Positions 6,645 through 63,600 of a DNA stretch of 64,000 nt are shown piece by piece. The DNA lies in NCBI RefSeq assembly GCF_000428725.1, contig NZ_AUAM01000022.1:1-64000 (forward strand). The letters run 5' to 3'. Under the pieces are notes generated by a model. That model searched no databases and was not told the DNA's origin. It saw only the letters and a program-made list of their open reading frames with translations. Origin of the DNA: Psychromonas aquimarina ATCC BAA-1526. GTDB lineage: Bacteria > Pseudomonadota > Gammaproteobacteria > Enterobacterales > Psychromonadaceae. The number at the start of each line of letters is the position of its first letter. Positions within the stretch are counted from its first letter, which is position 1. The position numbers and the translations under genes were made by a program.

Positions 6645-7247
6645 ATGAAACACGAATTTATTGAAAAGAATGTCGGTCTGCTGGCTGTTTTTATCGTCAT
6701 CGCAATCAGCTTCGGCGGCCTGGCACAGATAACACCGCTAATGTTTCAAAAAGAAACCAATGAACCGGTTGATACATTACGTCCGTATACAGCACTGGAA
6801 ATGGAAGGCCGTGATATTTATATCCGCGAAGGCTGCAGTAACTGTCACAGCCAGATGATCCGTCCTTTCCGTGCTGAGACTGAGCGTTACGGTCACTACA
6901 GTGTTGCCGGTGAAGGCGTATGGGAACATCCGTTCCTGTGGGGCTCAAAACGTACCGGTCCTGATTTAGCGCGAGTCGGTGAACGTTATTCAGATGCATG
7001 GCATGAAGTGCACCTGATTAATCCGCGCGATGTAGTGCCGCAGTCAAATATGCCGGCTTACCCGTGGCTTGCTGATAATGTGCTGACCGGTGAGGATACT
7101 GCTCGAAAACTTTCAATCTTCAGAGACAACTTTGGTGTTCCCTACACTGATGAAGATATTGCTGGTGCTAAAGCAGCTGTACAAGGCAAGACTGAGATGC
7201 AGGCGATAATTGCCTACCTGCAGTCACTTGGACACGCTTTTAGATAA
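6645..7247 (+). CDS. ccoO: cbb3-type cytochrome c oxidase subunit II (monoheme cytochrome c)
   Basis: This 200-residue protein has one N-terminal membrane anchor (about 10-30) and a periplasmic cytochrome c domain with the heme motif C64-S-N-C67-H68. The [13 protein letters not shown] segment just after it is a CcoO signature. Met residues in the later SNMPAYPW segment include the likely axial ligand. CcoO passes electrons from CcoP to CcoN. It starts 15 nt after ccoN with a GGGAG ribosome-binding site. Confidence 0.97.
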
Positions 7248-44932: not shown

Positions 44933-45044
44933 CCAACAGAATATTGATTTAAATTTGTTCAATAGATCACAAAACAAATACTTATGTCGATTTTTTTTAA
45001 AAGCAGCCTATATTGTAATGATCGTCAGCAGTTCAGGAGCTACT

Positions 45045-46118
45045 TTGAATCAGATTAATTCCATAAAGTTCATCAACTCATTAGCTGAAATCACACGCTA
45101 TCGAGACCCTAGAGTTATTGAACATAACTTATTAAAAACATTATTGGAATTTGATGAAAACAGCAGTTTTCGTCTTTATCAGGTTATTTCATTACAGCCG
45201 GCTATCAGACTGGGGCTGTCAGCTTTCGCATCTCAGGATAATATCGTCACCACCGAGGTTACCAAAAAACAACGCTTTTCCGAACATTTTCAGCAGGCAA
45301 TTTTTGATGTTGTTGATAAAGGGGAAATAGTTTCCTTGAACCAGGAACACAATCATCTGCAGGGCCAGATCATCTACCCGGCTTTTAACGCTCATAACGA
45401 AATTTTTGCAGTATTAATCCAGACCAGTAAACACCGAAAAGAGGATCAAAGACGTCTGGTTCATGGTGTATTACAAATCTACTGCAATTATCTGGAACTT
45501 ATTGCCGTCACTAATCGCGATAAGTTAACCGGTTTGTTAAATCGTGAAACCCTGGAATCTGAAATCACACGTTTATTAATTAAAAACAGAACCCCCTGCA
45601 AGGGCAGTACAAAACCCCATCTGCACGACAGACTGGATTTCAGGCACTATCACGGTGAGCAGAAAGACTGGTTGTGCGTACTTGATATTGACCATTTTAA
45701 AGATATCAACGACAACTACGGCCATATTTACGGAGATGAAATATTAATACTCGTATCCCGCCTTCTGGAGCAGAGTGTCCGGGATATCGACAAAGTGTTT
45801 CGTTTCGGCGGTGAGGAGTTTGTTTTAATAGTCAAAGCAGCTGACCAGCAGGATGCACTGTTAGCCTTTGAACGTATAAGGCAGGTAATAGAATCTCACC
45901 GCTATGCAAAAATTGAAAAACTGACGGTCAGTATCGGCGCTAAAGAGATCGCAGAACAAAATGATCCGCGCGAAGTTATTATTAAAGCTGATACGGCGTT
46001 ATATTACGCAAAACATCACGGTAGAAATCAAGTACAGATCTATGAAGCATTATTATCTGCCGGAGAAATATGCGAACAGACAGAGGACTTTGAAGAAGGA
46101 GGGGTAAATTTTTTCTGA
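45045..46118 (+). CDS. Diguanylate cyclase (GGDEF) with an N-terminal sensory region
   Basis: This protein of about 357 residues has a GAF-like N-terminal domain (about 1-150) and a GGDEF domain with intact FRFGGEEFVL. The product-inhibition site RDID (RxxD) stands in the correct place before it. The start is uncertain: the TTG at 45045 has AGGAG seven bases upstream, while ATG at 45018 or TTG at 44955 lack a good site. No membrane segment is needed with the chosen start. It lies downstream of the HD-GYP gene. Confidence 0.82.
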   Translation: MNQINSIKFINSLAEITRYRDPRVIEHNLLKTLLEFDENSSFRLYQVISLQPAIRLGLSAFASQDNIVTTEVTKKQRFSEHFQQAIFDVVDKGEIVSLNQEHNHLQGQIIYPAFNAHNEIFAVLIQTSKHRKEDQRRLVHGVLQIYCNYLELIAVTNRDKLTGLLNRETLESEITRLLIKNRTPCKGSTKPHLHDRLDFRHYHGEQKDWLCVLDIDHFKDINDNYGHIYGDEILILVSRLLEQSVRDIDKVFRFGGEEFVLIVKAADQQDALLAFERIRQVIESHRYAKIEKLTVSIGAKEIAEQNDPREVIIKADTALYYAKHHGRNQVQIYEALLSAGEICEQTEDFEEGGVNFF

Positions 46119-46830: not shown

Positions 46831-47244
46831 TTCAAAAAAACATGCCGGGCTGCCGGCATACATCACTATATTAGTGCAGCCGTAAACAGCCGTTTTCTAT
46901 CCTGACTATCTGCCACGCTTAAGTCCGTTAAAAATTCACCACATCCAGAAATTTCCCCCCGAACCAGCCATGAACGTATGCCTATATTATTTGTCTAAAA
47001 GAATAACTCATCGAGAACCAGACCAAGCGTCTATTTTGTGAACATCTGCGCATTATCTTCCGCCGACTAGTGTAGTATTTCAATGACACTCATTTTGTTT
47101 TTCAAATAGTTATGGTTTTAAGGTTTCAAGCTGAGATACGCGCCTAAACTTCCTGAACTGCCGGAAATTCATGGCGATTTGTATGTTGTTGGTCAGAGTC
47201 ATCGACCGGTTAGCTTGCCTAATACATACAAGGAGAAATAGCTC
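46831..47244 (+). other. Spacer between lolB and the 2-oxoacid oxidoreductase gene
   Basis: This 414-bp spacer holds a 7-bp hairpin (ATGCCGG/CCGGCAT, 46842-46859) whose T run lies on the minus-strand side. The long leader before the oxidoreductase gene ends in AAGGAGAAATAG just before the ATG. No open frame with a start, tRNA or familiar promoter is recognised. A GCTGAGA string near 47130 is not a TPP riboswitch. Confidence 0.6.
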
Positions 47245-50200
47245 ATGTCTTTATTGTCCAAATCTGATAAACAACAAGATTTTCCGCAATACCCGGGGTT
47301 AGCAGCAGTTATTCATGGTAACGGCGCAGTTGCGCATGTTATGAATCATGTCTGCGGCGGCGTGATTGGTTATCCTATTACACCTTCGACAGAAATTTCT
47401 GAACTATATGAAGAATTCCGTGCACACGGCGGATGCAATGTCTGGGGCGTACACCCCTTTTTCTTTGAACCTGAAGGTGAGCACTCCGCACAAAGCGGTG
47501 CATTAGGGGCAGCATTAACCGGCGGGAAATACATTTCCAATGCTTCCTCCAGTCAAGGTATCCTCTACGCTTTAGAATCTCATTATGTTACGGTCGGCAA
47601 AAAGACCGCTGGATTTGTACTTCATGTTGCAGCTCGATCTGTTTCTCGTCATTCACTAAACGTTATGGCCGGCCATGATGATGTCTACGCCCTGCTCTCT
47701 GCTGGTTATACCACGTTATTTGCCAGCAACGCACAGGAGGCGGCTGATTTAGCGGCTATTTCTTATCGAGTCAGTGCCCTCTCCCTTATTCCTGTAGCTA
47801 ATACAATGGACGGTTTTGCAACCAGCCACATTCAAAGTCAAGTTAAGCTGCCTGAGCCGGAAATGCTCAAGCAGTATCTCGGTGACCCCAGCGGTCGTAT
47901 TGCCGCACCAACAGAAGCACAGCGAATGCTTTATGGAGCGAAAGGGCGAGTATGGCAGCTCAAGCAGTTTATAAACAAATATCAGGATCAGTTCTGGCCG
48001 GATAAGTGCAGGGAATTAAAAGACTATATTGAACAGAATTGTGAACCGTTAGAACAAGACAGTAACGGCGACCACCTTAGTGAAACCAGTGAGTTCGTTC
48101 CTGCACAGCTGCAGAACAAATGGCGTCGTACCTGGCTGAACGCCTATCAAAAAGACAGCCGTCAACGCGTGCCCGCTTTAGTTGATACACACAATCCAGG
48201 CTTAACCGGCGGCGTGCAGAATCAACCCGATTATCAAGCAGGTATTGTCGATCATAGTACCCATTTTATGAGTGATGTGCCGCAGTTTATCGAACAGGCT
48301 ATGAACGAGTATACGAAATTAACAGGCCGACAATACCAGCCTGTTATGGAATTTATGTGCAGTGATGCGCAGTACGTGCTGCTTGGTTTAGGCTCTGTTA
48401 CTGATGATGCAGAAGCGGTTGCCGCTTATCTGCGCACCCGGGGTCATAAAGTGGGGGTGATTTCAATTAAACAGCTGCACCCGTTTCCTGAAGCGCAGTT
48501 AATTGAAAAACTAGCAGGTAAAAAATCGCTTACCATTCTTGAACGCTGTGATGAAACGCGCCTTACGGAACGAGTCTCGCGTGCTTTATTTAAGGCGGCA
48601 GAAAATGCTGCCTGCCTTCGTCACAAAGGCATTATGCCGCTCACTAATCCGCCTCAGATCAATACCGGTATCTTTGGATTAGGCGGCCATGATCTGCAGC
48701 CTTGTCATCTGATTGCAGCATTTGAAAATATGTCTGCACAAAACAGTAAACCTTTCTTTTATTTAGGCAGTCAGTTCTTTGAATATCAAGCATCGGGAGA
48801 GTTAGACGATACCCAGCAGCGCCTGCGTCAAGCCTACCCGGATACTGAGCTGATGGCGTTAGAAACCGGTGAAAACCCGAACCTGCTGCCGCAAAGCGCA
48901 ATGCGCATTCGTTTCCACTCCGTCGGTGGTTACGGCACCATTGCAACGGGTAAACTGCTCACCGACATTCTCGCTGGTGCACTGGGTTTACATTCTAAAT
49001 CGATGCCTAAATACGGTTCAGAAAAAAGCGGCGCGCCGACTAATTTTTTCATAACACTGTCACCTGAGCCTATCAAAATCACCAACGCCGAACTGCAGCA
49101 GATTGAGGTTGTTTTGTCACCGGATCACAAGGTGTTCATGCATACCAACCCGCTCGCAGGGCTCACAGAAAACGGCACCTTTATTCTGCAGAGCCACCAT
49201 ACACCCGAGCAGGTATGGCAGGAACTGCCGCAAAGCGCCCGCAGCTATATACGTGAGAAAAAGATTAATTTCTATGTTGTTGATGCTTTTGAAGTTGCCC
49301 GTAAGCATGCACCGGCGCCTGACTTAGAAATTAGAATGATGGGCATTGCCTTTATCGGCGCCCTGTGTGGTCATGCGAAACAGGTGACTAATGGTGCCGA
49401 TCCGCAGCAGATGCTGGAACGTATTGAACGGCAGATTAATAAGAAATTTGGAGCAAAAGGTGAAAAAATCGTTGCCGGTAATATGGCGGTAATTCATGAC
49501 GGCGTGCAGGCAACACAAGCTGTATGTTACGCCGACTTCACTGATAATGACACAAGCGGCGAAACAGTACAGAAACAGCACAATAAAACCAGCAGCGCCA
49601 GCTGCGGCTTATTCGACCAGGCTTACTTTGATAATATTGCCGGTAAAAACTACGCCGACGGCAGCATCAGCGAAGCCCCAGTCATTCCAGGCTCAGGCAT
49701 GTTTCTACCGCCCGCCAGTGCGGTAACTAAAAATAAAGGCTTGTTCCGTTTAAATGTCCCCGTATTCAATCCGGATAAATGTACCGGCTGCATGGAGTGT
49801 ACAATTGCCTGTCCAGACGGTGCAATTCCTAATGCAGTGCATGAACTGCACGATATATTAAACATTGCAGTCGACAAACTTGGTCTGCCGCCGGCACAGC
49901 TTGAACATATCAAGGCGCAGGTTCCCCTTCTTTGTGATGCGGTTCGTCAGCAATACCGCAGTACAGCTAAAGGAGAAACAGCACTTTTACATGAACTTAT
50001 GGCAAGAGTTATTGATAACATGTCATTCAATAACCAGGCACTGAAGCAGCATTTAAGCAGTGTCTGTGCAATGCTTGAAAATATGCCGCTAAGCCGTACT
50101 AAGCCTTTTTTTGACGCCATGGAAAATGCACTGCCGGGTTCAGGCGGGCTGTTCAGCGTTGCTGTCGATCCGGACAAATGCAGCGGCTGTATGGAATGTG

Positions 50201-52248
50201 TCGAGGTTTGTGGTCCTAACGCACTTGAAAAAGTACGTCAAAGCAGCGAGCTTAATACCCGGATGCATCAGTTCTTTGATACATTAGCTGCAATGCCGAG
50301 TACCCCGGTTCGATTCATTGAACAGGCGGCACAGTCCAGCGCAGAAGCGAAGCGTCTGTTACTGGATCGTAATAATTACTACGCAATGAGTTCCGGTCAT
50401 GGCGCTTGTCGAGGCTGCGGTGAAGTAACCGCGCTGCGTTTAGTCACATCGATAAACCGCGCTCTGCAGCAGCAGCGCTATCATGCGCATAGCGAGCAGT
50501 TAGAAAATCTGATTGAGCAGTTAAAGGTCAAGCTTACTACAATGATGAGCGATGAAAACGATACACACAGATCTGAGCGTATCCGGCAGACAATCGCGAT
50601 ATTAGACAAACGTCTATTCCACTTCGAACACGGCCCGACGGGCAACGGCCCTTCTGATGCCCTTATTGCCAACGCCACAGGCTGCAGCAGTGTCTACGCA
50701 TCAACCTTCCCGTCTAATCCCTATAATGATCCCTGGATTAACAGTTTATTTCAGGATACACCGGCTGTTGCGAAAGGTTTATTTGAAGGTGAAGCCGCTA
50801 ATCAGCTTGCGCAGATTAAAGCCGTCCGCAGTGCAAAACTGGATATTGATGATCTCTATGACCCGCAGATCCATGACCAGCAGCTGCGCTACCTTGAGTG
50901 GCCTCAGCTTTCCGAGCAGGAACTGGCGTTACTGCCGACAGTATTCAGCGTCGGTGGTGACGGTGCAACATACGATATTGGTTTCGGAGCACTGTCCCGC
51001 CTGCTGACAACATCGACACCGGTAAAAATCCTGGTTCTTAATACCGGCAGCTATTCTAATACCGGCGGTCAGGCATCTACCTCAAGCTTCACGGCGCAAG
51101 ACTCAGATCTTAGTCGTTTCGGCGCCACGCACAACGGTAAAGAAGAGGCGCGCAAAGAGTTAGGCATTATTGCCAGCTTCCACCCGAAAGTAATGGTTGT
51201 ACAAACCTCAACAGCACTGCAGGGCCACTTTATGTCAAGCTTGATAGAATACTTGAACTATCAGGATGCCCCGGCTCTGTTTGATGTCTATACCCCATGT
51301 ATGGGTGAACACGGTATCGCCGATGATGCCAGTACGCGCCATTCACGACTGGCCGTTGAAAGCCGCATGAATCCTGTTTTTGTTCATGATCCGCGTAAAG
51401 GTGAAACATTAGCACAGCGCTTCTCATTAGAAGGAAACCCTGAAGTCCAGCAGGACTGGGCTGAGCAGATCATTACTTATACTGATGCTGACGGTATGAC
51501 CCAGTTAAAACAAGTACCCTTTACCCCTGCTGATTTTGCTCTGCATGAAGGGCGCTTTAAGAAACATTTCAAAGTGGTCAACAGCAGCGCATCGCTGTTA
51601 GAAGTAGCTGATTACATCGCGCTAAGCGCATCACAGCGCAGGGGTAAAGTACCGTTTGTCTGGGCAACAGATAAACAGCGGCGCTTAATCCAGTTAAGTG
51701 TTTCTGATTCAATTATTGTCCTGACCGAAGAGCGTTTACGCAACTGGCGAATGCTGCAGCAGATCAGCGGTCAGCACCTTGTAAAAGTTGAGCAGGATTA
51801 CCAGCAGCAGATCCAGCAGTGGCAGCAGCGCTGTCAGCAGGCTGTCGAGGCTAAAGAACAGACGATCGACAGTATCGCCAACGGCTTAGCAGAGCTTGCT
51901 ATGACCACAGGTCCTCTCTCAGCTGAGCAGTCGATTCCAGTGACTCAGGTGGAAGCCGTACAATCAGCGGTCAATACTTCAGGCGCTGATAAACCCTTAG
52001 TGGTTATCAGCGATGAGGAGCAAAGTGAATGTACTGACTGCAAAACTTGTTACCAGCAGTTAGGGGAATTATTTGAAAAAGTCACCATTGTTGATAACGG
52101 TGCAGCAAAAGTTGTCAGCCGCGTTATCCCCGGCGCACTGGAAAATACCGTCATAACCGATGAACTGATCAGCCGGGCGGCGCGTATCGCAGCTGAGTGT
52201 GATGCTGAAATTATCCACCTTAATTCGCCAGCCGCCGCGGAGGTATAA
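47245..52248 (+). CDS. Giant pyruvate/2-oxoacid:ferredoxin oxidoreductase, all domains in one chain
   Basis: This 1667-residue NifJ-like enzyme is much longer than the usual ~1,170-1,200. Domain order: substrate-binding N-terminal domain (GYPITPSTE at 42-50), middle domain (QYVLLGLGSV at 376-385), gamma domain (HSVGGYGTIATGK, ~558-570), a ferredoxin domain with two clusters, C846/C849/C852/C856 and C979/C982/C985/C989, separated by an insertion of about 120 residues, and the thiamine diphosphate domain (GACRGCGE at 1053; GGDGATYDIG at 1237; NTGSYSNTGGQ at 1266). A further ~220-residue tail has a coiled helix (~1510-1545) and CTDCKTC (C1596, C1599, C1602). It should oxidise pyruvate or a related 2-oxoacid to acyl-CoA plus CO2. 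Exact substrate is unknown. It ends 2 nt before its flavoprotein partner. Confidence 0.9.
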   Translation: MSLLSKSDKQQDFPQYPGLAAVIHGNGAVAHVMNHVCGGVIGYPITPSTEISELYEEFRAHGGCNVWGVHPFFFEPEGEHSAQSGALGAALTGGKYISNASSSQGILYALESHYVTVGKKTAGFVLHVAARSVSRHSLNVMAGHDDVYALLSAGYTTLFASNAQEAADLAAISYRVSALSLIPVANTMDGFATSHIQSQVKLPEPEMLKQYLGDPSGRIAAPTEAQRMLYGAKGRVWQLKQFINKYQDQFWPDKCRELKDYIEQNCEPLEQDSNGDHLSETSEFVPAQLQNKWRRTWLNAYQKDSRQRVPALVDTHNPGLTGGVQNQPDYQAGIVDHSTHFMSDVPQFIEQAMNEYTKLTGRQYQPVMEFMCSDAQYVLLGLGSVTDDAEAVAAYLRTRGHKVGVISIKQLHPFPEAQLIEKLAGKKSLTILERCDETRLTERVSRALFKAAENAACLRHKGIMPLTNPPQINTGIFGLGGHDLQPCHLIAAFENMSAQNSKPFFYLGSQFFEYQASGELDDTQQRLRQAYPDTELMALETGENPNLLPQSAMRIRFHSVGGYGTIATGKLLTDILAGALGLHSKSMPKYGSEKSGAPTNFFITLSPEPIKITNAELQQIEVVLSPDHKVFMHTNPLAGLTENGTFILQSHHTPEQVWQELPQSARSYIREKKINFYVVDAFEVARKHAPAPDLEIRMMGIAFIGALCGHAKQVTNGADPQQMLERIERQINKKFGAKGEKIVAGNMAVIHDGVQATQAVCYADFTDNDTSGETVQKQHNKTSSASCGLFDQAYFDNIAGKNYADGSISEAPVIPGSGMFLPPASAVTKNKGLFRLNVPVFNPDKCTGCMECTIACPDGAIPNAVHELHDILNIAVDKLGLPPAQLEHIKAQVPLLCDAVRQQYRSTAKGETALLHELMARVIDNMSFNNQALKQHLSSVCAMLENMPLSRTKPFFDAMENALPGSGGLFSVAVDPDKCSGCMECVEVCGPNALEKVRQSSELNTRMHQFFDTLAAMPSTPVRFIEQAAQSSAEAKRLLLDRNNYYAMSSGHGACRGCGEVTALRLVTSINRALQQQRYHAHSEQLENLIEQLKVKLTTMMSDENDTHRSERIRQTIAILDKRLFHFEHGPTGNGPSDALIANATGCSSVYASTFPSNPYNDPWINSLFQDTPAVAKGLFEGEAANQLAQIKAVRSAKLDIDDLYDPQIHDQQLRYLEWPQLSEQELALLPTVFSVGGDGATYDIGFGALSRLLTTSTPVKILVLNTGSYSNTGGQASTSSFTAQDSDLSRFGATHNGKEEARKELGIIASFHPKVMVVQTSTALQGHFMSSLIEYLNYQDAPALFDVYTPCMGEHGIADDASTRHSRLAVESRMNPVFVHDPRKGETLAQRFSLEGNPEVQQDWAEQIITYTDADGMTQLKQVPFTPADFALHEGRFKKHFKVVNSSASLLEVADYIALSASQRRGKVPFVWATDKQRRLIQLSVSDSIIVLTEERLRNWRMLQQISGQHLVKVEQDYQQQIQQWQQRCQQAVEAKEQTIDSIANGLAELAMTTGPLSAEQSIPVTQVEAVQSAVNTSGADKPLVVISDEEQSECTDCKTCYQQLGELFEKVTIVDNGAAKVVSRVIPGALENTVITDELISRAARIAAECDAEIIHLNSPAAAEV

Positions 52249-52250
52249 TT

Positions 52251-54995
52251 ATGACTGCCACATTATCTCAGTCGCAACGCGACTTATTAATGCAGCGGAT
52301 AGAGCAGGATCCGCAGCGCTTTCAGCAGATGATCATTGAAGAAAGCCAGCAGGCGATCCGGCAGATGCTCAAACAGGGCCGGCTGACCGAGGCCTTTACA
52401 GAAAAACTGTGGGAATTGTTACTGGCGGGTAATGAACTCAGTACCGCTCTGCAGCGTTATTTATGGCGAATCCCGCTTAAACAAAAACGTGCTTTTATCC
52501 ACGGGTTAGATCAACATCTATCCAGCCGTTATCCTATGTTTAAAGGCTTATCAGACGGCTGGCCGGGGAAAAACAATATTCCCCCTTATGTCCGCCCGGC
52601 TTCCGAGCGGTGCACAGACTTTGATCTGGTTAACCAGGGGTATCTTGGTTATATGGGGCTGGGTTACAGTTTACGGGAAGTGGATCTGTTTGTCTGGTTA
52701 GAAGTACTGCGTGATAAACAATGTAAAGACAGCCCTTGTGAAGTCGGTATTCCACAGTGTAACAAACAAGGTGAGGAAAGCTCTGATAATGACGGCGGCT
52801 GCCCGGTAAAAATTCATATACCGCAAGTTTTGAATCTGATGGGCGAAGGTAAGTTTAAAGACGCCTTTGAACTTATCCGCGATGCAAACCCGCTGCCGAA
52901 TGTAACCGGCCGCGTTTGTCCTCAAGAACTGCAGTGTCAGGGGGTGTGCACCCTTAATGAACGTCCCATTGAAATCGGGCAGCTCGAATGGTTTTTACCG
53001 CAGCGGGAACGAGAGTTAGACAACAAAGAGGTTGACGATATTGTGGTCTGCAGCCCCTGGGCAGCAGCGGCTAAACCACCGGTTGCTGTTGTAGGTTCCG
53101 GCCCGTCAGGACTGATTAACGCTTATCTGTTAGCGAAAGCGGGTTACCCGGTCACTATATTTGAAGCATTTCACGCACTCGGCGGCGTACTGCGTTACGG
53201 TATTCCCGAGTTCCGTTTACCGAATCAGTTGATCGATGATGTGGTTGACAAAATCAAAGCGCTTGGCGGGCGCTTTGTGACCAACTACATTGCGGGTAAA
53301 ACAGCCACCCTTGCCGACTTAAAGCGCGCCGGCTTTGCACGGGTATTTGTGGGAACAGGCGCTGGTTTACCCCGGTTTATGAACATACCCGGTGAACATC
53401 TGCTTAATATCATGTCGGCCAATGAGTTTTTAACCCGGGTTAACCTGATGCATGCTAATGAAGCGGAATATGAAACTCCGCTGCCTTACGTTAAAGGCAA
53501 AGAGGTAATGATTATCGGCGGCGGTAATACCGCAATGGATGCCGCACGTACCGCATGTCGCCTGGGCGCTAATGTGACGATTGTTTATCGACGTACCCGG
53601 CAGGAGATGCCAGCTCGAGTTGAAGAACTGCACCACGCCCTTGAGGAAGGGATCAAACTTAAAGAGCTGCGCTCTCCCTGCGAGTTTAACGGAGACAAAA
53701 ACCACCAGCTTGCCGGCTGCAGACTTGAAGTGATGGCACTGGGTGAGCCGGATGCATCAGGGCGCCGGCGTCCGCAGGCAACGGGTGAAACTGAGCTGAT
53801 GCAGGTTGATTTAGCCGTCATGGCGCTCGGCAACAATTCAAATCCAATTGTCAAAGATGCAGAGCCCGGTTTAAAAACATCTAAATGGGGCACTGTGCAG
53901 CTCAACAAAGGATCACAGGAAACCTCGTTAAGCGGTATTTACAGCGGCGGCGATGCTGCCCGCGGCGGCTCTACTGCGATTAAAGCCGCGGGTGACGGTC
54001 AGGCGGCGGCACAGGAGATCATGCAGGGCTTGAATTTTAATGCCGAAGAAGTCAAAAATCTTGTCAAACAGGCGAGCCGTTATACGGACTTGGGGCAGAC
54101 AGCCGCGGAAATCGTTAAACGCCTGCAGTTAACCGATGAGATTGTAGAATTCACCATTAAAGCGCCCCTGATTGCACAATCAGCCAAAGCCGGACAGTTT
54201 GTCCGCGTATTAGCCGATGATAAAGGTGAACTAGTGCCGTTAACCCTTGCTGACTGGAACCGGGAAGACGGCACCATTGTGCTGGTTATTCAGGGGCTGG
54301 GCAGTACCTCAAAGATCATCAACCAGATGCAGGAGGGAGACTGCTTTACTGCGGTTGCAGGTCCGCTTGGCCGGGCAAGCCATGTAGTCAAACACCCTGA
54401 AAAACAGCGTATTATATTCACCGCCGGCGGTGTCGGTTTACCTGCTGTATACCCGATTATGCGCGCGCATCTTGAAACAGGCAACAAGGTCACCTTAATC
54501 TCGGGATTCAGAGGTCTCGACTTTTGTTTCTGGACAGAACAAGGCGGGCGCATTGAAGCCTTACGCAGCCGCTATCCGGATCTGCTTGAAGTTATTTATG
54601 CCAGTAACGATGGTACTTTCGGCATTAAAGGTTTTGTCACCATGCCGCTCGAAGAGATGCTCAGCAGTAATCGAGACAGTGCAGCAGAAGCTGTTGCAGA
54701 GGTGGTCACTATTGGTCCGCCGATGATGATGCGGGCAGTGAGTGATTTAACGCTGGGTTATAATGTTGCATGTGTTGCCAGCCTTAACTCCATTATGGTG
54801 GACGCAACGGGAATGTGCGGTGCGTGTATGGTGCCGGTCATGGAAAACGGCAAACTGATCCGTAAGCATGCCTGCATCGATGGTCCTGAAATAAACAGTC
54901 ATATTATCGACTGGGATAAGTTCTTACCTCGGTTTAATCAATTTAAACCGCAGGAACATCAGAGCCAGATCGAGCATAATTTAATTGATGAATAA
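52251..54995 (+). CDS. Fused NfnB/NfnA-like FAD/NAD(P) oxidoreductase, partner of the 2-oxoacid oxidoreductase
   Basis: This 914-residue protein joins both Nfn-type subunits. After an unassigned N-terminus (1-110) comes a cysteine-rich region (C121, C158, C163, C170, then C184, C223, C229, C233 in a GltD-like cluster arrangement). The GltD/NfnB flavoprotein core has FAD motif GSGPSG (282-287) and NAD(P) motif GGGNTA (423-428). From about 620 an NfnA/DHOD-B-like domain follows with FAD/NAD sites (AGQFVRV; TAGGVGLPAVYP) and a [2Fe-2S] ligand set C856, C859, C875 (DATGMCGACM). The Shine-Dalgarno GGAGGT overlaps the end of the first gene, so translation is coupled. It probably passes electrons from reduced ferredoxin to NAD(P)+, perhaps with bifurcation. 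The pairing is inferred from coupling and domain logic. Confidence 0.88.
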   Translation: MTATLSQSQRDLLMQRIEQDPQRFQQMIIEESQQAIRQMLKQGRLTEAFTEKLWELLLAGNELSTALQRYLWRIPLKQKRAFIHGLDQHLSSRYPMFKGLSDGWPGKNNIPPYVRPASERCTDFDLVNQGYLGYMGLGYSLREVDLFVWLEVLRDKQCKDSPCEVGIPQCNKQGEESSDNDGGCPVKIHIPQVLNLMGEGKFKDAFELIRDANPLPNVTGRVCPQELQCQGVCTLNERPIEIGQLEWFLPQRERELDNKEVDDIVVCSPWAAAAKPPVAVVGSGPSGLINAYLLAKAGYPVTIFEAFHALGGVLRYGIPEFRLPNQLIDDVVDKIKALGGRFVTNYIAGKTATLADLKRAGFARVFVGTGAGLPRFMNIPGEHLLNIMSANEFLTRVNLMHANEAEYETPLPYVKGKEVMIIGGGNTAMDAARTACRLGANVTIVYRRTRQEMPARVEELHHALEEGIKLKELRSPCEFNGDKNHQLAGCRLEVMALGEPDASGRRRPQATGETELMQVDLAVMALGNNSNPIVKDAEPGLKTSKWGTVQLNKGSQETSLSGIYSGGDAARGGSTAIKAAGDGQAAAQEIMQGLNFNAEEVKNLVKQASRYTDLGQTAAEIVKRLQLTDEIVEFTIKAPLIAQSAKAGQFVRVLADDKGELVPLTLADWNREDGTIVLVIQGLGSTSKIINQMQEGDCFTAVAGPLGRASHVVKHPEKQRIIFTAGGVGLPAVYPIMRAHLETGNKVTLISGFRGLDFCFWTEQGGRIEALRSRYPDLLEVIYASNDGTFGIKGFVTMPLEEMLSSNRDSAAEAVAEVVTIGPPMMMRAVSDLTLGYNVACVASLNSIMVDATGMCGACMVPVMENGKLIRKHACIDGPEINSHIIDWDKFLPRFNQFKPQEHQSQIEHNLIDE

Positions 54996-55001
54996 AAGCT
55001 G

Positions 55002-55062
55002 AAAGCCGGCTCGGCGCGGCCCTCTTCAACCAGAAAGGGGTTATCACAAACGAGCTGGCTTT
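55002..55062 (+). terminator. Long-loop hairpin after the oxidoreductase operon
   Basis: The arms AAAGCCGGCTCG (55002-55013) and CGAGCTGGCTTT (55051-55062) pair over 12 bp with one G-T. It lies just past the second oxidoreductase gene and before ispE, so it probably ends that operon. Confidence 0.55.
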
Positions 55063-59714: not shown

Positions 59715-60602
59715 TTAAGGAAAGGAGGCCAGCTCAATACGGTTCCTGCCGCCCTGTTTAGCTTTATATAATGCATCATCGGCACGTTTTAATAATCTTT
59801 CGAAGTCAACATCCTCGGCTTTTAATTTAGCCATGCCGATACTCACAGTCACTTTAATGCCTTGCGGTTTAAGCTGCTCGATTTTACGCAGAATCCGCTG
59901 CGCTTTATTTAAAGCATCCTGATCTTCACAGGGATCAAATATAACCACAAACTCTTCTCCGCCGAATCGAGCGGCAAGATCTTCAGCACGATTATCAACC
60001 GCCAGCACATCAGCAACCTGCTTCAATATCTGATCCCCCATCGGGTGGCCGTAGGTGTCATTTATCATTTTAAAGTGGTCAATATCGATCATCAGCAGCC
60101 ATAATTCATAGCTATGCCTTAACGCTCGGGATACTTTTCTGGCGGCGGCTTCAAACAGAAAATGACGATTATATAATCCCGTTAACTGGTCATTAAAAGC
60201 AATCTGATTGAGCTTATCACGCTGCAGTTTCAGTGTAATATGAGTATTAACACGAGCAATAACAATAGCAGGTCGAATGGGTTTAGTGATGTAATCAACG
60301 GCGCCTAATTTAAGACCGAGCTCCTCATCTTTATCTCCCTGCAGACCGGTTATAAAAATAACCGGAATAGCTTCCGTTTCAGGATCCGCTTTAAGACGCT
60401 TACAGACTTCATAACCGTTCATACCCGGCATTTCCACATCTAATAAAATAAGGTCCGGCTGCGGGGTTTGACGGGCAATCTGCAGGCATTTTTCCCCATC
60501 GGTTGCCACTTTCAGCTGATGATAACCTTTCACACAAGCAGCCAGCACCTGCAGATTGGTCGCCGAATCATCAACAATTAAAACCAGAGCTTTATCTGAC
60601 AT
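59715..60602 (-). CDS. Response regulator with GGDEF output (PleD-like, one receiver)
   Basis: From ATG 60602 this 295-residue protein has a receiver domain (1-120; phosphorylation Asp in LILLDVEMPG) and a GGDEF domain with intact ARFGGEEFVV. RAED ahead of it matches the RxxD inhibition site. It lies 2 nt after the stop of the hybrid kinase, with GAGG at 60610-60613, so the two are coupled. The kinase's HPt domain probably phosphorylates this receiver and switches c-di-GMP synthesis on. Confidence 0.9.
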   Translation of the reverse strand: MSDKALVLIVDDSATNLQVLAACVKGYHQLKVATDGEKCLQIARQTPQPDLILLDVEMPGMNGYEVCKRLKADPETEAIPVIFITGLQGDKDEELGLKLGAVDYITKPIRPAIVIARVNTHITLKLQRDKLNQIAFNDQLTGLYNRHFLFEAAARKVSRALRHSYELWLLMIDIDHFKMINDTYGHPMGDQILKQVADVLAVDNRAEDLAARFGGEEFVVIFDPCEDQDALNKAQRILRKIEQLKPQGIKVTVSIGMAKLKAEDVDFERLLKRADDALYKAKQGGRNRIELASFP

Positions 60603-60604
60603 TA

Positions 60605-63600
60605 TCAATCCTCTTGCGGTAAAGAATGGGGAAGCTTATAAATTTCGTCAATTATCTGTTCAACTAATCTGGAGGCATTCGCTAAATCAAACAATGTAAT
60701 CAACTCTTGCAGATTAATAAATTTTTCTTTCATATCCGCCGCAAGGCAGCTTTCAATTAACGGTGATACTTCCTCGCTTTCGATGTAATCATTCTGCTGC
60801 AGACGAACAGCTAACTGCTCTAGAAGATTAAGCATCTTTTCTTCAGTTAGAGCCGCTTTAACAACCACTTCCTGTTCGGGCTTATTATCGACAGCTTGTA
60901 AATAAACGCTGAATTCAGCTGTTAATTCAGTATAGCTTTGCTTCACAAAACTAAAAGCCTTGGTAAAGGGCTCCGGGTTATTCATTTCAGCTGCTTTCTC
61001 TAATTCAGAACAATAAAATGCTAATGCCAGTGCACTTAAATTAGCAGAAACACCTTTAATCGTATGTGCTAAAACTCGAACCTGATGCTGATCATGATCA
61101 CTAACCGCATCGCTTAACTCATCAATTTTACAAGGTATTTCATCAATAAAGGTTTTAACCAGGGTTATCAGTAACTGCTCTTTATTTAATACCCGGTGCA
61201 GGGCATCTGCTTTATCCCAGCACAATAAACTCGTCTGCAGCTCTGCAGCCTGCTGCTTAGTGTTAACAATATAACCGGCGGCACCAGCCAGCCAGTGAGC
61301 TAACTTAGTTTCAAGTAACTTAGGATCAATCGGTTTGCAGATATAATCATCCATACCTGAATCTAAACATTTATCCCGGTCACCGGTCATCGCATTAGCG
61401 GTCATGGCAATAATAGGTATATCGATATAGGCTTGACCGGCTTCGCCCTTACGAATTGCTTTTGTTGCCTCATAACCGTCCATCACGGGCATCTGACAGT
61501 CCATAAAGATCAGTTGATAGACTCTGCTTTTTAATGAAACCTGTAGAGTTGATAAAGCCTGCTGACCATTTTCAGCAACATCAGCACTAAAACCAAGCTC
61601 TTCTAAAATTCCCAGTGCCACCAGCTGATTAACTTTATTATCTTCAACTAATAATATTTTTATTAAGGACTTGTCGGCTTCCCGGCGCTCAGGCGCATTA
61701 TTTGTATGAGCTAAGCTTCTTAAATAATCATGAGTGACCAAAGGTGATGCCTGCTTCAATGCCTCGCCGTTATCAACAACAACATTTAATGCATCAAACA
61801 GATCCGAGGTTGTTGCCGGTTTAGGAAAATATGCATCAAAACCAAGATCTGCAAAAAACTGCGTTTCATTCTGCGAAGCAATTGACGTCATCATCACCAG
61901 CTTCATTTCATTAAGCTCACTATTGCTGCGCAGCAGCTGCCCCAGCTGCGCACCGTCCATTTCCGGCATCTGCATATCTAAAAATGCAACGTCAAAAATA
62001 TCCTTATTATCTGCCAGCCTGTCTGTACATATCTGCAGCGCCTGCCTGCCGTCTTCAGCTTCACTAACAGCAGCCCCCCAGTGCTCCAGCTGACCTCTTA
62101 AAACTTCTCTGTTAGTGGCATTATCATCAACAATCAGCAGCTGCAGTTTGCTGATATCAACACGCGGCAGTACTTTCTGAGACTGGTGACTAACCTGCAG
62201 CTTTGCTGTAAAAGTAAAAGTACTTCCTTTATCTGTTTCACTTTGAGCATGAATTTCGCCCCCCATTAAAGAACATAACTTATGACAGATTGCCAGACCT
62301 AATCCAGTACCGCCGTACTTTCTAGTGGTCGATGTATCTACCTGGGTGAAAATCTCAAACAAAGTAGAAATTTTATCCTGCGGAATACCTATTCCAGAAT
62401 CTTCCACTGAACAGCTGAAATCAATAATTTCTTCCTGACTATTGTGCGTGGCGGCAGTAATTCTGATTTCCCCCTGATCGGTAAATTTCACCGCATTGCT
62501 GATTAAATTGGTCAGAATCTGACGTAAGCGTCCCGGATCACCTTTTACCATAGAGTGATCCACACGGGTTAAATCTAATATAATTTCAACCCCTTTTTCC
62601 TGCGCATGCAGCGCCATCGCCTCTGATAATTCGCCGAACATTTCACGCAGGTTGAAATTGATAATATCTAACTCCATTTTACCCGCTTCAACTTTGGAGA
62701 AATCTAAAATGTCATTGATCAGCACCAGCAGTGATTCAGCGCTGGATTTAGCCAGTGACGCTTTATGCAGCTGATCTTCATTCAGCTTACTGTTAAGCAG
62801 CAGCCCCAGCATGCCCAGTACACCGTTCATCGGCGTTCGAATCTCATGGCTCATGCTGGCTAAAAAGTCCCCCTTCAACTGACTGTTCTGCTGTGCAGTT
62901 ATAGTCGCTTCTCTAAGCTGCTTACTGGCTTTTTCGCGAATAACCGCAGTGCTGAAAATATCCGACAGATCATGCAGAATATTTTCCTGCTGCACGTTTA
63001 ATTTTACATTTTTCTGTGTAAATAAGAGTAAAATTCCGACCAGCGGATGTTCATCGGAATCATCATTACTAAGATTGTTTTTTAAAGGTAATATATAATG
63101 GCCGTGCGGATGCTCCTCTGCACAGCAGGTTTCATCACATTGTTCAATAACCTGGAGCGTTTCACTATTAATGCAGCTCTGACATAAGTCTAAAACAGCT
63201 TTTTTATCAGCATCATCAGCAGCAAAATCACCAATCCGACTCGACAAGATAAACTCTGCAGCTTGTTCATCATAAATATAAATACAGGCTTTATTATTAA
63301 AGCCGAAATCAGGCAGTTCAAGAGAGTAACCTAATGCATCGAACAAACGATTTGAAAATGCGGTGTGTGCAGAAAGAGATTTTGTAATATCCAGTTTTAC
63401 AGCGGCCGTTTTGAGATTATTAGCCTGCTGGCGTTCGGCTGCTTTTTGTTCAGTAATATCGGTTCTAATAGCAACATAACTCTGCGGGCGTCCGTTTTGA
63501 TCTTTAAAGGGTACTATAGTTGTATTAACCCAGTACAATTCTCCGGATTTCTTTCTATTACAAATATCTCCATTCCAGACTTTACCCGCTTTAATTGTTT

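Follow-up and report, generated by a model that had tools for sequence, protein, structure and literature searches.

Among described single-chain 2-oxoacid oxidoreductases, NifJ proteins (TIGR02176; PDB 6cin, 7plm, and 1b0p) combine an alpha-gamma-ferredoxin-beta order in one polypeptide with thiamine pyrophosphate (TPP) motifs and 12 cluster-ligating cysteines. The NADH-linked phenylglyoxylate dehydrogenase is a multi-subunit enzyme in which a 2-oxoacid oxidoreductase is paired with an NAD-reducing flavoprotein subunit, and Rnf is an ion-pumping ferredoxin:NAD oxidoreductase. Here we describe a locus of Psychromonas aquimarina ATCC BAA-1526, found in a stretch of 64,000 nucleotides (contig NZ_AUAM01000022.1, positions 1 to 64,000; hereafter the window), in which a giant single-chain 2-oxoacid oxidoreductase, POR, is directly followed by a fused Nfn-type flavoprotein, NFN. 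We propose, at a probability of roughly two in three, that the pair is a dedicated 2-oxoacid:NAD(P)+ oxidoreductase whose electrons would pass via a tethered ferredoxin domain to Nfn.

The closest described relatives of the second protein are NfnAB/NfnSL (PDB 5jca and 4ylf), for which functions have been assigned to a glutamate ligand of the proximal cluster, to an aspartate and three cysteines around a [2Fe-2S] cluster, and to an arginine pair at the NADP site (PMC6405883; PMC9503767; these and PMC6085437 are cited throughout for excerpts of the papers). A fused form, Pattern C, corresponds to the PRK12779 model, carries an NfnB-like before an NfnA-like part, and exceeds other fused Nfn by about 200 aa. 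Pattern C is reported from Actinobacteria, Alpha- and Gammaproteobacteria and is described as uncharacterized (PMC6405883). A published example is that of Mobiluncus curtisii, whose homolog is placed at the base of the NfnSL tree with Shewanella halifaxensis listed beside it (PMC6085437). The presence of pyruvate:ferredoxin oxidoreductase (PFOR) genes near some nfn genes is already in print: a Figure 2 legend names PFOR among the nfn-neighboring genes of "several microbes," with no species given there, and the text citing that figure mentions Clostridium kluyveri, Moorella, and C. autoethanogenum, in an excerpt that does not state the location of PFOR (PMC6405883). A Pattern C member may be among them. 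A search of the open full-text literature found no mention of PRK12779, and no account of a POR-Nfn pair stood among the matches listed (titles and abstract starts); POR in combination with Rnf was not part of that search.

A Single-Chain POR With a Further Ferredoxin-Like Domain

The 1667-aa POR (47245-52248; forward strand, as are all window features given below) was identified from its open reading frame, from Pfam and NCBIfam models and from matches to the NifJ-type structures 6cin, 7plm, and 1b0p. Its Pfam domains follow the NifJ order, namely POR_N, PFOR_II, POR gamma, Fer4 (from about residue 838), and TPP_C (residues 1232-1286), after which comes Fer4_15. Aligned with four NifJ proteins that are 1173-1207 aa long and encoded in related genomes, POR is 26-28% identical to them and retains the TPP motifs YPITPST, HVAAR, GDG...DIG, and SNTGGQ as well as all 12 NifJ cluster cysteines. 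The first-pass annotation, which was made from this DNA alone, had singled out the presence of all subunits in one chain. That domain reading holds, but such an arrangement is normal for NifJ, and the real oddity is that POR exceeds the four NifJ proteins by about 460-490 residues, a further ferredoxin-like domain included. Sixteen cluster cysteines in four sets of four are invariant in 24/24 family members. Because POR scores 421.1 bits against the NifJ equivalog model TIGR02176, below the cut-off of 911.35, it was not filed as a NifJ member.

Pfam and the alignment place POR_N at residues 40-211 (47362-47877) as the TPP/2-oxoacid-binding half with YPITPST and HVAAR, whereas PFOR_II (residues 375-449; 48367-48591) and POR gamma (residues 561-755; 48925-49509) were assigned by Pfam. 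The first [4Fe-4S] motif (Cys 846, 849, 852, and 856; 49780-49812), invariant in all 24 sequences, is also kept in the four NifJ proteins and in the plasmid-borne relatives of Persicobacter and Gemmatirosa described below. It is followed by a second motif evident from conservation (Cys 979, 982, 985, and 989; 50179-50211) and by the TPP-binding half, which Pfam and the alignment delimit with Cys 1055, 1058, 1147, and 1352, GDG, and SNTGGQ (50407-51414).

The C-terminal domain (residues 1592-1658; 52018-52218) is ferredoxin-like and would hold a single cluster on the invariant Cys 1596, 1599, 1602, and 1652, which form a CTDCKTC...C pattern within the last 100 residues. Fer4_15 matches 15 of 20 homologous C-terminal pieces (E up to 0.01); the window POR itself reaches 25.7 bits as a whole protein, over the cut-off of 22.4 with no single stretch passing, and 21.4 bits for the piece. 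A profile built from the C-terminal piece retrieved the PDB ferredoxins 7m1o (E 5e-4) and 7m1n (E 2e-3).

The segments of POR that are absent from the four NifJ proteins lie chiefly at about 215-233, 247-305, 897-956, 1071-1138, and in much of 1404 to the end. Residues 247-305 (47983-48159) are occupied at each position in at least 11 of 13 Nfn-linked PORs and are missing from both Rnf-linked PORs and the four NifJ proteins, a distribution that makes them a candidate Nfn docking element. Residues 897-956 (49933-50112), located between both ferredoxin motifs and present in the sampled giant PORs, appear helical in an otherwise poor structure model. A PDB fold search with the POR model returned 15 PFOR chains at low template modeling (TM) scores and then noise only. 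In E. coli, a search with the first 3956 bases of POR gave no DNA match, and in the organism's own genome no second POR match was found (E 0.001).

The Fused Nfn Partner

NFN (52251-54995; 914 aa) passes the PRK12779 model with 1650.7 bits over a cut-off of 1519 across residues 2-911, which bears out the earlier assignment of two fused Nfn subunits. Its open reading frame has the Pattern C layout, in which an NfnB/GltD-like half (residues 182-591) precedes an NfnA/PyrK-like half (residues 620-907); it thus differs from NfnAB/NfnSL both in being fused and in reversing the usual nfnA-nfnB order. In the PDB, residues 182-594 align with Pyrococcus NfnL (5jca_L, E 1e-112) and the C-terminal piece with 5jca_S (E 3e-58), over 54-470 of the 474 residues of NfnL and 10-270 of the 284 residues of NfnS. 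An N-terminal region of about 120 residues (52251-52610) lies outside any Pfam match and is mostly helical in the AlphaFold model. A b-FAD/NADP(H) domain with GGGNTAMDA and YRR (residues 278-591; 53082-54023; Pfam and PDB match) is followed by the NfnA/PyrK-like a-FAD/NAD half, which extends over residues 620-914 (54108-54992) by NCBIfam and PDB match.

Motif comparison located two [4Fe-4S] motifs, formed by C158, C163, C170, and C184 and by C223, C229, C233, and E246 (52722-52988), and a [2Fe-2S] motif formed by D851, C856, C859, and C875 (54801-54875). The proximal-cluster residues C223, C229, C233, and E246 are kept in 23/23 NFN sequences and agree, the Glu ligand included, with the published motif GRVCPQExQCx3C...Gx2ER, except for a shorter loop ahead of Gx2E and a Trp in place of the Arg that follows the Glu. 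The Asp and three Cys of the [2Fe-2S] site are likewise kept in 23/23 and fit the published DGTGMCGxCRx10CV, from which the NFN stretch DATGMCGACM-x14-CI departs in loop length and two residues. The arginine pair R447-R448 of the NADP site is present in all 23 as well. Exchange of the proximal-cluster glutamate of NfnL for cysteine uncouples both branches (PMC9503767), and the retention of E246 therefore speaks for coupling in NFN. On the strength of these ligands electron bifurcation by NFN is possible, with the caveat that two further Nfn motifs differ, as discussed below. The third cysteine of the distal cluster varies within one genus of a second proteobacterial class, with Cys in four rows and Thr or His in four (L087, L088, L090, and L093 against L086, L089, L091, and L092).

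The local confidence of the NFN model (predicted local distance difference test, pLDDT) lies mostly at 70-82 per block at residues 11-90 and below 65 after. In fold searches the NfnA-like half reached a TM score to target of 0.84 against 5jca_S, and the model otherwise recovered known relatives at low TM scores.

Linkage, Distribution, and Descent of the Pair

The stop codon of POR and the ATG of NFN are 2 nt apart, and a Shine-Dalgarno sequence for NFN, GGAGG, was read within the 3' end of POR (52239-52243). Both open reading frames, their coordinates and lengths, this gap, and the ribosome-binding site are as first described. Of 15 gammaproteobacterial rows measured, 11 share the 2-nt gap; in the second proteobacterial class the distance ranges from -44 to +36, and there, as in the remaining gammaproteobacterial rows, the figure hinges on the ATG chosen. 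A fixed stoichiometry and a physical POR-NFN complex, which the first-pass annotation drew from this arrangement, are predictions.

NFN lies directly downstream of POR in 26/26 proteobacterial loci whose sequence beyond POR could be read, namely in the window, in 17 gammaproteobacterial loci, and in 8 from one genus of the second class, which by our guess is perhaps Magnetococcia. The 17 loci stem from a genome-collection scan with patterns of the window POR, which reaches close relatives only; they belong to Psychromonas, Vibrio, Photobacterium, Shewanella, Neiella, and Aliagarivorans, show 71-89% best-segment identity, and carry NFN downstream of POR in 17/17 cases. The claim that the pair always co-occurs thus stands for the readable proteobacterial loci and fails outside the phylum, where two giant PORs sit among rnf genes on plasmids with no Nfn found at E 1e-100.

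The pair is patchily distributed. POR was found (E 1e-200) in 6 of 394 genomes drawn evenly at the level of the order, four of them in the genus, and the PRK12779 cut-off was passed in 9 of 398 genomes of a phylum draw, namely the organism's own and eight of one genus of the second class. In these eight, POR is directly upstream of NFN in 8/8 and shares 55-57% identity with the window POR. A draw from the organism's own class found NFN in 2 of 274 genomes, the own genome and one (G254) that was left out of the linkage count, its POR and NFN fragments lying at the ends of two contigs. Five genomes (G001, G005, G016, G336, and G436) are apparently those of scan loci L031, L041, L040, L034, and L046 and were counted once.

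Trees of both proteins, proposed with the initial annotation, agree at their well-supported forks: the second class, Psychromonas, Photobacterium, and two separate Vibrio groups are recovered in both, and disagreement is confined to weaker points (Shewanella, Aliagarivorans, and the V. comitans group). The shared linkage and the matching groups indicate that the pair has been inherited as a unit and is patchily spread; POR and NFN move together. Besides the pair itself, neighbor families recur in 5 of 22 loci at most, and with neighbors unannotated the context reveals little. Three loci needed separate treatment. The partial contig L043 was used in the linkage count only, the Photobacterium sanctipauli locus (L047) dropped out of the NFN set when the longest-ORF rule chose another gene, its own NFN being present, and the NFN of Vibrio hannami (L045) was removed as a short open reading frame by the length filter. 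In P. sanctipauli POR is split over two frames at about 7053-7074, and the V. hannami NFN is shortened (match 1-754); in either case a frameshift or an assembly error may be responsible.

Proposed Electron Route and Competing Explanations

Both proteins, their ligands, the pairing, and the insertion are evident from the sequences, from which the substrate, electron route, complex, direction, and coupling of the proposed enzyme are predicted as follows. POR, most likely acting on pyruvate, would decarboxylate a 2-oxoacid on TPP and yield acyl-CoA. Electrons would cross the three [4Fe-4S] clusters of NifJ type and reach a fourth, single one in the tethered C-terminal ferredoxin domain. This domain would stand in for free ferredoxin and supply the iron-sulfur half of NFN, from which the FADs of NFN would carry the electrons to NADP+ and/or NAD+. 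The net conversion would likely be that of the Nfn type, 2-oxoacid + CoA + NADH + 2 NADP+ -> acyl-CoA + CO2 + NAD+ + 2 NADPH. In the genus, sampled as 24 Psychromonas genomes of which 4 carry the pair and 20 lack it, aceE passes its cut-off in 23/24 (the exception is a 51% complete genome), and PntB and pflB are found in 24/24 each. A role of the pair as a replacement for pyruvate dehydrogenase, pyruvate formate-lyase, or PntAB was considered and rejected, given that the tested genes are kept throughout the genus. Since genes for pyruvate dehydrogenase E1, pyruvate formate-lyase, and PntB are present in the genus whether or not a genome carries the pair, the pair would rather represent an accessory route for 2-oxoacids, whose likely product is NAD(P)H.

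Several observations weigh against this proposal. With a score of 421 against the pyruvate equivalog cut-off of 911, pyruvate is no more than the most likely substrate, and outside Proteobacteria the giant POR occurs without a link to Nfn. The distal cluster of NFN departs from the published motif RCx2Cx4Cx3CPV: C158, C163, and C184 are invariant in 23/23, but their spacing differs, and a cysteine between C163 and C184 (C170 in the window) is found in 19/23 and missing in 4 of the 8 second-class rows. The a-FAD motif ERxPxT is replaced by ELxPxT (ELVPLT in the window), with the leucine, L661, in 23/23. Both changed motifs are departures from characterized Nfn, at the ferredoxin entry and at the a-FAD, respectively. 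The AlphaFold models of POR 818-1667 (mean pLDDT 53.7) and of NFN (mean pLDDT 60.5) are too weak to place the clusters, and no claim on cluster distances is based on them.

The same two departures would suit an enzyme that transfers electrons from the 2-oxoacid to one nicotinamide only, without flavin-based coupling, like the NADH-linked phenylglyoxylate dehydrogenase. This is a narrower form of our proposal and overlaps with it, and we regard it as plausible rather than probable. Besides ELxPxT for ERxPxT and the altered distal cluster, it can draw on weak matches to the subunit models of phenylglyoxylate dehydrogenase, which remain far under their cut-offs (PadG 114.3 of 700 bits, PadI 58.5 of 700, and PadE 39.6 of 300); what argues for coupling instead is that both FAD halves are present in NFN and that the Asp-ligated [2Fe-2S] motif and the proximal-cluster glutamate are kept in 23/23. 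The pair could also consist of two co-regulated but separate enzymes, in which POR reduces soluble ferredoxin or flavodoxin and Nfn balances the pools of reduced ferredoxin, NADH, and NADPH, as would an ordinary PFOR with NfnAB. The two-cluster ferredoxin domain of NifJ is indeed retained in POR, and characterized NfnAB uses free ferredoxin (PMC6405883). We nevertheless consider this unlikely in view of the adjacency of POR and NFN at every readable proteobacterial locus in two classes, the further ferredoxin-like domain within the POR chain, the alteration of the distal cluster of NFN where docking places ferredoxin, and a POR segment, 247-305, that is seen only alongside an Nfn partner.

An operation in reverse, in which bifurcating oxidation of NADPH to NAD+ would drive the reductive carboxylation of acyl-CoA and thereby create a self-contained 2-oxoacid synthase, strikes us as very improbable. 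The coupling ligands of Nfn, E246 and D851 with its three cysteines, are kept, and Nfn has been assayed both ways in vitro (PMC9503767), but the pyruvate dehydrogenase E1 and pyruvate formate-lyase genes of the genus leave no obvious need to convert acetyl-CoA to pyruvate, and the gene neighborhoods tell little. A dedicated 2-oxoacid:NAD(P)+ oxidoreductase remains the reading that we prefer.

Rnf-Linked Giant PORs Outside Proteobacteria

PORs of the same class occur on two plasmid records, Persicobacter psychrovividus pPP1 and Gemmatirosa kalamazoonensis plasmid 1. They are 36-37% identical to the window POR, 50% to each other and 24-28% to NifJ, and hold all 16 cluster cysteines; a branch with 100/100 support separates all giant PORs from the four NifJ proteins, with long branches as a caveat. 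On both large plasmids the POR gene has rnf genes, not Nfn, as neighbors (L116:7329-19355 in Persicobacter and L117:2477-17856 in Gemmatirosa). In Persicobacter it is followed on its 3' side by rnfC, D, G, E, A, an FNR-like gene, and rnfB, while in Gemmatirosa rnfB lies upstream and rnfC, D, E, and A downstream. Model cut-offs are passed by rnfC, rnfD, and RsxE/RnfE in both plasmids and by rnfA in Persicobacter only; rnfB falls under the cut-off in both, as does the rnfG of Persicobacter (86 vs. 102 bits). The rnfG and apbE of Gemmatirosa were assigned by reading the translation; at E 1e-30 neither matched a model. In front of the Gemmatirosa cluster stand a 2-oxoacid oxidoreductase alpha gene over its cut-off and a PorB/KorB-like beta gene under it. 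A PRK12779-type Nfn was not found on any plasmid at E 1e-100, the sole threshold run.

The neighbors of both non-proteobacterial giant PORs are thus again ferredoxin-linked redox genes, and POR has the appearance of a module in which a tethered ferredoxin serves an acceptor that can be exchanged. We speculate that the giant PORs could be a separate class of 2-oxoacid oxidoreductases with a tethered ferredoxin and one dedicated partner that can be swapped in evolution, Nfn in marine Gammaproteobacteria and the second proteobacterial class and Rnf in Bacteroidota/Gemmatimonadota; together with Nfn they might form a single machine that couples the oxidation of a 2-oxoacid and NADH to the reduction of NADP+, or works the other way round, without a freely diffusing low-potential carrier. 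To this wider proposal we attach somewhat poorer than even odds.

Insertion Between lolB and ispE and the Upstream Element

The pair is an insertion between lolB (TIGR00548) and ispE (TIGR00154), the block being continued by prs, the ribose-phosphate diphosphokinase gene. The gene-order comparison that the first-pass annotation had proposed confirms this: a distance of 17-513 bp separates lolB from ispE in 19 of the 20 Psychromonas genomes without the pair, and one of 8330-8588 bp in the 4 genomes that carry it, the twentieth pairless genome (G018) having the two genes on separate contigs. Elsewhere the setting differs, as neither lolB nor ispE was found in the fetched flanks (up to about 6 kb) of the Vibrio, Photobacterium, Shewanella, Neiella, and Aliagarivorans loci. 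GC content is 46-53% across the pair vs. 40-46% in the flanks. The GC content of third codon positions, at 0.47 for POR and 0.51 for NFN, compares with 0.48 for lolB and 0.47 for ispE; with POR at the level of its flanking genes, composition is weak as evidence for the insertion.

Upstream of POR lies the element TTGTGA-N31-TAGTAT (47036-47078, with TTGTGA at 47036 and TAGTAT at 47073), which precedes the gene in 12/16 gammaproteobacterial loci; 200 single-letter shuffles gave a mean of 0.01 and a maximum of 1/16, a comparison to be read with the pattern having been drawn up post hoc from the alignment and with species kinship making the 12/16 less independent. Its spacing fits a class II site of the CRP/FNR type with a leader of about 160 nt, and it is probably the pair's own promoter with such a site. 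Among Gammaproteobacteria the element apparently moves along with the pair; the best TTGTGA-type matches of the second class carry at least 4 mismatches. Other candidates were discarded. A CTGAGA stretch upstream had suggested a TPP riboswitch, for which Rfam gave only a chance match (E 6.2, below gathering). FNR and NarL boxes showed no consistent signal, an FNR-like site with one mismatch occurring in three Vibrio loci, and full Rex or CRP palindromes had 1-3 mismatches in their best matches, the left half TTGTGA being the recurring element.

On the 3' side of NFN, an imperfect inverted repeat, AAAGCCGGCTCG / CGAGCTGGCTTT followed by ATT, was seen by eye at 55002-55062 and is a possible terminator of the inserted unit. 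Two open reading frames near the block resemble diguanylate cyclases (GGDEF by eye; 44955-46118 and 59715-60608); the former immediately precedes lolB and has homologs at the equivalent position in L031 and L040.

Implications

Reduced ferredoxin in its free form is reactive toward oxygen and couples pathways only loosely. If our proposal is true, the electrons of the 2-oxoacid would be kept on a tethered ferredoxin and handed to one partner, which could explain such chemistry in oxygen-exposed facultative bacteria. NFN is of the same fused type as the Mobiluncus curtisii protein, which stands at the base of one Nfn tree (PMC6085437), so the finding may also bear on how electron bifurcation began. 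A swap between Nfn and Rnf as partners of the giant POR would, in addition, allow docking and energy use to be compared cleanly.

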